DNA of 64,000 nt, from the NCBI GenBank assembly GCA_003352285.1, contig QQVN01000003.1, positions 62,001 to 126,000 on the forward strand, in the 5' to 3' direction. The position numbers and the translations under genes were made by a program. This document shows, one piece after another, positions 27,745 to 48,447 of this stretch. Every line of letters starts with the position of its first letter. Within the stretch, counting starts at the first letter, position 1. The notes under the pieces were generated by a model. The model was not told the DNA's origin. It saw only the letters and a program-made list of their open reading frames with translations, and made no database searches. The DNA comes from Thermoproteota archaeon (GTDB lineage: Archaea > Thermoproteota > Nitrososphaeria > Nitrososphaerales > Nitrosopumilaceae).

Positions 27745-27848
27745 GCAGGGGTATCGAAGCCCGGTCAACCGAGAAGGACTCAAGATCATGACAATAGGAA
27801 ATCCTTTCCTTTAGGGGTTCGTGGGTTCAAATCCCACCTCCTGCACCA
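27745..27848 (+). tRNA. tRNA-Leu (CAA) with 16-nt intron, CCA encoded
   Basis: The acceptor GCAGGGG (27745-27751) pairs with CTCCTGC (27838-27844). The T arm is GTGGG-TTCAAAT-CCCAC, and A73 with CCA (27846-27848) is encoded. The anticodon stem AAGGA (27774-27778) pairs with TCCTT (27802-27806) only if a 16-nt intron at 27785-27800 is removed after position 37. This leaves loop CTCAAGA, anticodon CAA (27781-27783). The long variable arm marks a class II tRNA, as expected for leucine. Confidence 0.93.
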
Positions 27849-45765: not shown

Positions 45766-46269
45766 TTACAATAGTAACAATGACATATTGAGCAAATTGA
45801 CATTTGCAACATCAAAGTCACTTACTCTATAATCAATTACCTGTTCAGAAAACTTTTCAATAATTTTTTGTGTTGGATCTGAATCTTCAGCTTCAACTTT
45901 CATTACAATAAGAATATTCCAATCGCCTTCTAGATTTGCAATAAACAAATAGTTTGGTAATTTTACTACAAAATCCTTGATAGAATCTTTTACTGAATCT
46001 AGAGATTTTGATGGTTTTAATTTCATAAACAATGCTTCATATTCATTTGATTCCGATACATCGGTTAGAACAGCTTTGTAACCTTTGATGATTCCACTTT
46101 TCTCTAGCCTCTCGATTCTTTTCCGTATGGTTCTATCTGAAACATCATGACCTGATTTTCTTAGCTCAGTTGCTATTTCTTTTGAAGGTGTTCTTGCATT
46201 CTTGTTTAAAATCTCTATAATCTTCTGGTCAACTTTGTCTAGATTTGACCAAGGATCATTACTCATACC
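45766..46269 (-). CDS. Lrp/AsnC-family transcription regulator
   Basis: An N-terminal winged HTH (LDKVDQKIIEILNKNARTP and DRTIRKRIERLEKSGIIKGY) and a C-terminal RAM-like ligand/oligomer domain. The frame is open further upstream to 46458, but that part runs through the tRNA-Tyr gene. I therefore set the start at the ATG at 46269 (MSNDPW, 167 residues); ATG at 46287 is an alternative. Probably controls amino acid or central metabolism genes, as other members do; targets unknown. Confidence 0.88.
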   Translation of the reverse strand, partial: GMSNDPWSNLDKVDQKIIEILNKNARTPSKEIATELRKSGHDVSDRTIRKRIERLEKSGIIKGYKAVLTDVSESNEYEALFMKLKPSKSLDSVKDSIKDFVVKLPNYLFIANLEGDWNILIVMKVEAEDSDPTQKIIEKFSEQVIDYRVSDFDVANVNLLNMSLLLL

Positions 46270-46316
46270 ATAGTGTAAATTCATGAGTTTTTGAATTTTT
46301 GGTTGTGAAAAAATTA

Positions 46317-46440
46317 TGGTCCCAAGCGAAGGAATTGAACCTTCGACAACCCGGTTTCTGTATGCCTGATATGCTGCTATTATGTCAGCCAAAAGCCAAC
46401 TACTACAGCCGGAAGCTCTACCAGGCTGAGCTAGCTTGGG
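46317..46440 (-). tRNA. tRNA-Tyr (GTA) with 47-nt intron, CCA encoded
   Basis: Read on the minus strand, acceptor CCCAAGC (46440-46434) pairs with GCTTGGG, followed by A73 and encoded CCA (46319-46317). The D arm is GCTC-AGCCTGGTA-GAGC and the T arm GAAGG-TTCAATT-CCTTC. Anticodon stem TCCGG pairs with CCGGG only after removing a 47-nt intron (46402-46356) behind position 37. The loop CTGTAG then gives anticodon GTA. The C1-G72 pair is the archaeal tyrosine identity. Confidence 0.93.
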
Positions 46441-46571
46441 ACAAATTTGTCGGAGCACTTTAGTATTAAATAACTATCGAACAAGAACGAATCAAATACG
46501 CATAATTTTGAGTAAATTTAGCACACGATCTGTAAAATATTAAATAATCAAGCTATTGATCACTGGATCCA

Positions 46572-47183
46572 GTGTCAGAAACCATACTTCAAACAAGTGG
46601 ATATGTCTGTATTCCATATTTGCATAGTCATAATACTATTGAACTAAAAGATACATGGGATCATTCAAAGAATATCGAAGACATGTATTTTGTCACTGCA
46701 ACATTCTCTGAGGAGAGTAAGCCATACTTTTCATCATCGGCTAATCACTACATACTTGCCAAATTCAAAGATTCAAAAAAAATAATTAAAGAAATTGAAA
46801 AATACAATCAGGATAAACCGTCTTTTATTTTCACAATGGATGAAGGATTGTTTGAACGTGAATCCCAAGGAACAATGAATTTTGTTTCAGTGTACTATTT
46901 GGAATATGGTGATTCAGAGGAAGATGTCAGCGAAGTTGCAAATCTTGTTGCCAAGCGAGAAAAAGTGGGTAAAGCAGGTGTAGGTCATATGGATCTATGC
47001 TGTACCATACCACAAAAGTTTACTTTTCCATACAGTGGCAATATTGTTGTGTTAGAAGTTTCTAGTGATAAAAGCCATCAAAGTGTGAACAAATATTGTG
47101 AAAAAACACGACGTGATGTTGGAAGAAAAGGGATCACACTGACAAATCTTGTTAGTCTTTCCATTCTTGAAAAGCTAAAATAA
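46572..47183 (+). CDS. Protein of unknown function (203 residues)
   Basis: I do not recognise this protein. It looks like two alternating strand-helix modules; notable parts are MYFVTATFSEESKPYF, GVGHMDLCCTIPQKF with a paired cysteine, and a basic C-terminus (CEKTRRDVGRKGITL). No signal peptide or membrane span. The start is GTG at 46572, lying inside a perfect 14-bp palindrome (CACTGGATCCAGTG, 46561-46574) that could be an operator. aIF5A follows 34 bp downstream. Confidence 0.7.
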   Translation: MSETILQTSGYVCIPYLHSHNTIELKDTWDHSKNIEDMYFVTATFSEESKPYFSSSANHYILAKFKDSKKIIKEIEKYNQDKPSFIFTMDEGLFERESQGTMNFVSVYYLEYGDSEEDVSEVANLVAKREKVGKAGVGHMDLCCTIPQKFTFPYSGNIVVLEVSSDKSHQSVNKYCEKTRRDVGRKGITLTNLVSLSILEKLK

Positions 47184-47217: not shown

Positions 47218-47628
47218 ATGAGCAAGCCAGCAGATTTGGGTTCATTAAAGATCGGTTCTTACATTTTACTACCTGTATCTGATCAACCATCAGGTGAACC
47301 ATGTAGAATCGTAGAGTATGATACCAGTAAACCTGGAAAACATGGAGCAGCAAAAGCAAGAATTGTAGGTGTTGGAATTTTTGATGACCAAAAAAGGCCC
47401 CATGTAGGACCTGTTAGCATGCAAGTTCACGTTCCTTTGATTGACAAAAGAACTGGACAAATTATCTCCATTACTGGAGACATTATCCAAATAATGGATT
47501 CTGAAACCTTCGAGACAATAGACGTCACCCTGATTGATGATGAAGTCAAGGGTAAGCTAGAGAATGGACAAAACGTAGAATACTGGAAGGTTATGGATAA
47601 AACCAAAATAATGCGTGTAAAGAGTTAA
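47218..47628 (+). CDS. eif5a: Translation factor aIF5A
   Basis: Archaeal homologue of eIF5A, which helps ribosomes through difficult peptide bonds. It has a KOW/SH3-like N-terminal domain with the modification loop SKPGKHGAAKAR, whose first loop lysine is the site for hypusine or deoxyhypusine, and an OB-fold C-terminal domain (GQIISITGDIIQIMD). It is 136 residues. A box C/D guide RNA begins 4 bp after its stop, and the diphthamide enzyme Dph6 comes next. Confidence 0.95.
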   Translation: MSKPADLGSLKIGSYILLPVSDQPSGEPCRIVEYDTSKPGKHGAAKARIVGVGIFDDQKRPHVGPVSMQVHVPLIDKRTGQIISITGDIIQIMDSETFETIDVTLIDDEVKGKLENGQNVEYWKVMDKTKIMRVKS

Positions 47629-47632
47629 ACTC

Positions 47633-47697
47633 GGATGCTGATGATGAGCGGAAAAGCCGTCTGAGGTTTGATGAGGATTATGAGTAATGAAGCATCC
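47633..47697 (+). ncRNA. Box C/D guide RNA predicted to target C34 of elongator tRNA-Met
   Basis: A 65-nt element with all parts of an archaeal C/D sRNA. Terminal stem GGATGCT (47633-47639) pairs perfectly with AGCATCC (47691-47697). Box C is ATGATGA (47641-47647), box D' CTGA (47661-47664), box C' TTGATGA (47668-47674) and box D the variant ATGA (47687-47690). The D guide (47675-47686) is complementary to ACTCATAATCC, an elongator tRNA-Met anticodon loop. The fifth base before box D pairs with the C of anticodon CAU (position 34). The D' guide target is unknown. It lies in the 3' region of aIF5A and may be processed from that mRNA. Confidence 0.85.
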
Positions 47698-47748: not shown

Positions 47749-48447
47749 ATGAGACTTGCAGCACTTTTTTCTGGAGGTAAGGATAGCACATATTCTATCT
47801 ACCAAGCTACCTCCGAAGGTCATGAAGTGGTTTGTCTTGTTACAGTATTTCCAAAATCAGAAGAAAGTATGCTTTTACATCATCCAAATATCGAAGTGAC
47901 AAAATTACTTTCTACCTCAATGAGAATCCCTCAAGTGTATGTGACTTCAGATTCCAATGATACAGCTAATGAAGTTAATTCTATTTTTCAAATTCTAAAA
48001 AAAGCAAAAATTGATTTTCAAATAGAGGGACTAGTACATGGTGGAATTTCTAGTGTATTTCAAAAGAAAAACTTTGAAAATTTATGTAAAAAACTAGATC
48101 TCAAACTCTTTTCTCCAGTTTGGAATCTTAATCCTCATTCATATATGAAACAACTTTTAGAGAAAGGATTTTGTTTTATGATTACTAGTGTTACTTCTGA
48201 GGGATTAGACGATTCATGGTTAGGCAAGATTATCGACCCTGCAGATATTGAAAACTTATCCGAGTTATCAAAAAAACATGGATTCAATCTTAATTTTGAG
48301 GGAGGCGAGGCTGAAACACTAGTTGTAGATTGCCCTTTGTATTCATATCCATTGGAGATAACAAATTTTAAAAAAATATGGGATGGTTACCGTGGAAAAC
48401 TTGAGATTATAGAGTCAAAATTAGATTATAGCAAAAAAAATGTGTAA
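47749..48447 (+). CDS. dph6: Diphthine-ammonia ligase Dph6
   Basis: ATP-dependent amidation of diphthine, the last step of diphthamide formation on a histidine of elongation factor aEF2. The N-type ATP-pyrophosphatase P-loop is ALFSGGKDSTYS at residues 6-16. Later motifs are VTSEGLDDSWLGK and FNLNFEGGEAETLVVDCPLY, diagnostic of the Dph6/MJ0570 group. It is 232 residues. The rest of the pathway (Dph2, Dph5) is not in this window. Confidence 0.9.
   Translation: MRLAALFSGGKDSTYSIYQATSEGHEVVCLVTVFPKSEESMLLHHPNIEVTKLLSTSMRIPQVYVTSDSNDTANEVNSIFQILKKAKIDFQIEGLVHGGISSVFQKKNFENLCKKLDLKLFSPVWNLNPHSYMKQLLEKGFCFMITSVTSEGLDDSWLGKIIDPADIENLSELSKKHGFNLNFEGGEAETLVVDCPLYSYPLEITNFKKIWDGYRGKLEIIESKLDYSKKNV

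Follow-up and report, generated by a model that had tools for sequence, protein, structure and literature searches.

What does a small RNA gene placed directly behind the aIF5A gene of a Nitrosopumilaceae genome guide, and can it do so with a box D whose first base is no longer C? The locus lies in a stretch of 64,000 nucleotides (64 kb), here called the window, from a genome of 1.69 Mb that is 99.6% complete. The original prediction described a box C/D sRNA with a perfect 7-bp terminal stem and guides of 13 and 12 nt; its coordinates, boxes, guide lengths and stem are all confirmed by direct reading of the about 65 nt. It is very probable that the molecule is a double-guide archaeal box C/D sRNA, with Cm34 in elongator tRNA-Met and Cm2611 in 23S rRNA as the predicted products.

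Anatomy and conservation of the RNA

The boxes follow each other in the order C, D', C', D with guides of about 10-13 nt, a terminal stem closes the outer C/D motif, and both guides are complementary to a tRNA or rRNA in the D+5 register (tRNA-Met C34 and 23S C2611), which is what is expected of an archaeal box C/D RNA. The features are listed in Table 1; a single G separates the 5' half of the stem from box C, and a GGT spacer lies between the D' and C' boxes.

Table 1. Features of the sRNA and its neighbouring genes, in window positions
Feature	Position	Strand	Evidence or remark
Whole box C/D sRNA	47633..47697	+	sequence, rarity of the box pattern, conservation
Terminal stem, 5' half GGATGCT	47633..47639	+	28 relatives: 5 of the 7 pairs show compensatory change and 99% of cells are paired
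Box C, ATGATGA	47641..47647	+	sequence; conserved in the alignment of relatives
D' guide GCGGAAAAGCCGT	47648..47660	+	bases 47650-47659 (GGAAAAGCCG) are complementary to 2608-2617 of the genome's 23S and point to C2611 (E. coli C2510)
Box D', CTGA	47661..47664	+	invariant across 28 aligned relatives
Box C', TTGATGA	47668..47674	+	sequence; C' core conserved
D guide GGATTATGAGTA	47675..47686	+	bases 47676-47685 (GATTATGAGT) are complementary to positions 31-40 of elongator tRNA-Met and point to C34
Box D, variant ATGA	47687..47690	+	C at position 1 lost family-wide
Terminal stem, 3' half AGCATCC	47691..47697	+	covariation of the stem
aIF5A gene, upstream neighbour	47218..47628	+	Pfam IF5A-like_N / eIF-5a; its stop codon precedes the sRNA by 4 nt
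Diphthamide synthase-like gene, downstream neighbour	47749..48447	+	Pfam Diphthami_syn_2

The pattern TGATGA-N9-16-CTGA-N2-9-TGATGA occurs at one place in the 64 kb, against 0.01 expected from shuffles; the search lists this place twice, as two overlapping starts. With a covariance model the RNA is recovered from 231 of 300 genomes of the order and from 177 of the 197 good ones, figures which are an upper bound because some weak order-level matches are other C/D RNAs. Rarity of the pattern and recovery by the model together exclude a chance origin.

The RNA is conserved across ammonia-oxidising archaea. Blastn detected it in 32 of 61 relatives, and within the family a strict pattern matched 208 of 250 genomes, among them 115 of the 131 good ones; the named genomes with the same RNA include Nitrosopumilus, Nitrosarchaeum and other Nitrosopumilaceae. 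An alignment of 28 relatives has 31 invariant columns, which make up the D' guide core, the D' box, the C' core and the D guide core. It should be noted that the aligned rows were chosen by a pattern requiring parts of both guide cores, a pattern which only 2 of 30 blastn loci failed. The terminal stem covaries (Table 1).

The D guide and elongator tRNA-Met

The elongator tRNA-Met gene was located in the full genome (L064, G000:C5:213711-213805+) and aligned to the D guide. With its own tRNA-Met precursor the guide forms 11 Watson-Crick pairs and one G:U, and C34, the first anticodon base of CAU, comes fifth when counted from box D, as had been predicted. Shuffled D guides reach 11 Watson-Crick pairs in the tRNAs of this genome in 0.065% of trials. 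The original prediction gave the target as ACTCATAATCC; this string is indeed complementary to the guide, but its exact copy in the genome is the guide only and no tRNA reads it. The tRNA-Met reads ACTCATAATCT, thus ...ATCT instead of ...ATCC, and the difference falls on an unconserved guide base. The tRNA-Ile(CAU) and the initiator tRNAs have different bases at positions 31 and 39 and pair more weakly.

Ten Watson-Crick pairs, at positions 31-40, are conserved. The guide core GATTATGAGT matches these positions in both Nitrosopumilaceae and Nitrososphaeraceae despite the differing rest of the anticodon stem: in the latter the tRNA-Met has the stem TTCGA/TCGAA and no intron, while positions 31-40 and the guide core are unchanged. 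The core is invariant where the tRNA is invariant, and guide bases on both sides of it vary freely. The arm CTCATAATCTGG is invariant in 32 relatives, of which 31 were found via that pattern's family, the complement being a few genomes without a match. The fit in two families supports the proposed target, with methylation of C34 as the predicted outcome.

The tRNA-Met gene has its intron before the anticodon (GCCAG-[19 nt]-ACTCATAATCTGG). We infer that its site is 30/31, since this placement restores the CCAGA/TCTGG stem. One guide pair is formed with the last U of the intron; only the unconserved guide base 1 contacts it, and there is no covariation between guide and intron. With the intron at 30/31, and absent in the sister family, the conserved pairing is confined to the exon. 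A non-canonical intron at 30/31 is seen in all Nitrosopumilaceae examined and in several other families (L064; L089-L120; L345-L354); it is variable in length and sequence, and none was seen in the Nitrososphaeraceae examined.

Two candidate covariations were rejected. The pairing of the last guide base with the last U of the intron in the window's genome, together with a G-C pair in G023 and T-A pairs in G016 and G033, resembled covariation with the intron but is broken by G002, G068, G013, G014, G024 and several g20 genomes. A guide base change in G002 (GGGTTATGAG) is not compensatory, as the tRNA-Met there is unchanged and pairs by G:U. The tRNA-Ile(CAU) of G002 (L143) also reads ACTCATAATC, as does its tRNA-Met, and the D guide therefore would not discriminate between the two in that genome. 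A Nitrosopumilaceae genome, G007, has a copy (L208) which keeps the D' guide for 23S and has a different D guide, with tRNA-Met unchanged. Both genomes count against the double-guide reading.

Other tRNA-related observations were made alongside. A second C/D RNA family occurs in sister families (L206, L209, L211, L212, L213, L215 and L217); its D guide GATCTTGAG fits CTCAAGATC of tRNA-Leu(CAA), for which it is probably a C34 guide, and no member was found within the window. Default ARAGORN missed two intron-containing tRNA genes in the window, a tRNA-Leu(CAA) at 27745-27845 (+) and a tRNA-Tyr(GTA) at 46320-46440 (-), the latter inside a mechanical ORF at 45766-46458.

The variant box D

The AUGA box D noted in the original prediction is real and lineage-wide. 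Among 98 distinct copies of the Nitrosopumilaceae type the box reads UUGA in 48, AUGA in 49 and ACGA in 1, never CUGA, whereas 16 copies from other families have CUGA (12) or CCGA (4). The inner D' box remains CUGA while the outer box D varies. In a normal k-turn the C of box D is paired to box C, and the UGA forms the tandem G-A pairs; this UGA is kept in 97 of the 98 family copies. Lacking the C at position 1, the molecule falls outside the canonical subset and is classed as a box C/D RNA with a variant box D. The departure from CUGA could weaken the outer k-turn in Nitrosopumilaceae.

From this it might be argued that only the D' guide methylates, the AUGA or UUGA outer motif having little catalytic power and the D guide doing no more than bind or chaperone the anticodon arm of tRNA-Met or its precursor. 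The complete loss of the position-1 C next to an unchanging D' box speaks for such a reading. So does the wider spread of the D' guide: RNAs of families f12, f4, f2 and f16 retain it with other D guides, so that of the two modules the 23S guide is either the older or the one of broader distribution. Against this stands a D guide core which is invariant and in the exact D+5 register over hundreds of genomes; moreover, copies of sister families that share this D guide carry CUGA or CCGA, and the UGA forming the G-A pairs is retained in nearly all copies. We consider methylation by the D' guide only to be improbable and prefer an RNA in which both guides direct methylation.

The D' guide and 23S rRNA

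The original prediction left the D' guide unassigned. Compared with the genome's own 23S rRNA, 16S region and tRNAs, the guide has its best match, ten Watson-Crick pairs, at 23S 2608-2617 (CGGCUUUUCC), and no match among all tRNAs and the 16S region is better. The D'+5 register places the target at C2611, so that a target can now be assigned, with Cm2611 as the predicted product. The equivalence of C2611 to E. coli C2510 in helix 90 includes a 2-base offset in the E. coli record used, which was fixed on the A-loop. This helix 90 site lies beside the peptidyl-transferase centre.

Is the match to 23S a product of chance, so that the RNA would serve tRNA only and carry an orphan D' guide of the kind reported from tRNA-targeting sRNAs of Pyrobaculum (PMC7994747)? 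Shuffled D' guides equal the ten Watson-Crick pairs to 23S in 2% of trials, and an orphan partner guide is frequent among published tRNA guides. Few stretches of the sRNA, however, are as conserved as the D' core, which is kept in the RNAs with a replaced D guide and has changed together with its partner base in 23S. All 10 Nitrosopumilaceae 23S sequences examined read CGGCUUUUCC, and the guide reads GGAAAAGCCG; all 20 from other members of the order read CGGCUCUUCC, and the guide is GGAAGAGCCG in clear orthologues. Those named copies with the G-type guide which were checked belong to Nitrososphaeraceae or Nitrososphaera. The change between families (guide A/G, 23S U/C) is cleanly compensatory, though it counts as one event on the family stem branch. 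This joint change is the decisive evidence for C2611 as the target of the D' guide, and it makes a chance match highly improbable; the RNA with two functional guides remains the preferred reading.

At L041, L043, L047, L048, L049, L051, L052 and L055 the terminal stem is followed within 0-3 nt by up to 10 nt that repeat the 23S target (GGCTTTTC) and are complementary to the RNA's own D' guide; the window's genome has no such trailer. Trailers of at least 8 nt occur in 8 of 128 loci against 0.2 expected. At L047, L051 and L052 the trailer matches lineage-specific guide bases, not 23S. Such a trailer possibly masks the D' guide in the precursor.

Genomic neighbourhood

Most relatives keep the synteny with the aIF5A and diphthamide synthase genes, as does at least one locus of the Nitrososphaeraceae; SRP54 also lies downstream, after the diphthamide synthase-like gene. 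The sRNA may share the aIF5A transcript. A scan with bacterial-type promoter and terminator models, which say little for an archaeon, gave no site for the sRNA. In the Nitrososphaeraceae loci L183-L186 a TATA-like ATATATTAATT stands about 25 nt upstream of the sRNA, which suggests a promoter of its own there, unlike the aIF5A-linked copies. Two further observations concern neighbouring genes: a 203-aa ORF upstream of aIF5A (window 46572-47183, +) has no Pfam match, and at L352 (G382) about 85 nt separate the guide RNA from that genome's tRNA-Met gene, which follows downstream on the opposite strand.

That the element acts in cis, as an L7Ae-binding k-turn by which the aIF5A message is controlled from its own 3' region, is scarcely credible: its position just past the aIF5A stop codon is fixed in most relatives, and L7Ae has been proposed as a regulator of messages through k-turns (PMC5539422), but a k-turn alone leaves the two conserved guides, the compensatory change with 23S and the D+5 register unexplained, and the search for a long open frame directly before the sRNA was negative in several relatives. 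A cis k-turn could be an extra role of the sRNA.

Proposed function

The double-guide model proposes the following steps. The sRNA would be cut from the aIF5A message or transcribed beside aIF5A, and would bind L7Ae, Nop5 and fibrillarin. The D guide would then pair with elongator tRNA-Met(CAU) 31-40, placing C34 at D+5 for the predicted Cm34, and the D' guide with 23S 2608-2617, placing C2611 at D'+5 for the predicted Cm2611. In the tRNA the methyl group would stiffen the wobble base so that tRNA-Met reads AUG and not AUA; AUA is read by the agmatidine tRNA-Ile(CAU). In the ribosome the methyl group would stabilise a highly conserved segment of the rRNA. Since the conserved pairing with the tRNA is all in the 3' exon, methylation of tRNA-Met would be independent of the intron and of the order relative to splicing.

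A more far-reaching version holds that throughout the ammonia-oxidising archaea one conserved RNA couples modification of the Met wobble base and of the catalytic region of the ribosome, via an outer box D that family-wide is without its defining C, and that some genera carry a 3' trailer complementary to the D' guide, which masks that guide until the precursor is trimmed. Taken as a whole this version is unlikely.

The sRNA supplies two exact methyl positions to check, and it unites in a single molecule the guides for a tRNA wobble base and for a site in rRNA. It also indicates that Cm34 of tRNA-Met can be guided without need of an intron, and the series CUGA versus AUGA/UUGA is a natural one for asking how much of box D is needed.

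Comparison with known systems

A search of the literature available without subscription found no account of C/D RNAs in ammonia-oxidising archaea, and an Rfam scan of the sRNA gave nothing at the gathering threshold; the best match below it was sR41 (RF01126), with 27.6 bits against a cut-off of 54, whose proposed target is the equivalent of 23S G1950 (PMC2584109). Guides for Cm34 of elongator tRNA-Met are known from other archaea, as the original prediction noted: Pyrococcus sR49 and haloarchaeal sRNAs are predicted to have this function (PMC2584109). They resemble the present RNA in being stand-alone box C/D sRNAs aimed at C34 in the D+5 register. According to the published description those guides pair in part with the tRNA intron and thus act before splicing (PMC2584109), whereas here the target 31-40 is exon and the tRNA-Met targets in the sister family have no intron. 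Human elongator tRNA-Met is likewise methylated at C34 by box C/D RNPs, SNORD97 and SCARNA97, which differ in being two cooperating RNPs (PMC6601510).

For the second site, human 28S Cm4456, which is guided by SNORD49A/B (PMC5597630), corresponds to E. coli C2510 by numbering only (Um4498 = E. coli U2552). Archaeal double-guide sRNAs acting on 23S helices 90-93 (PMC4644070) share the same target hotspot; both their guides are often on nearby rRNA sites, whereas here the second is on a tRNA wobble base. In the Pyrobaculum sRNAs that target tRNAs the second guide is without a target according to a review (PMC7994747), unlike the present case where both guides have supported targets. The sRNA is thus a well-supported addition to a known kind of RNA: Cm34 guides are known elsewhere, and this one has unusual features.
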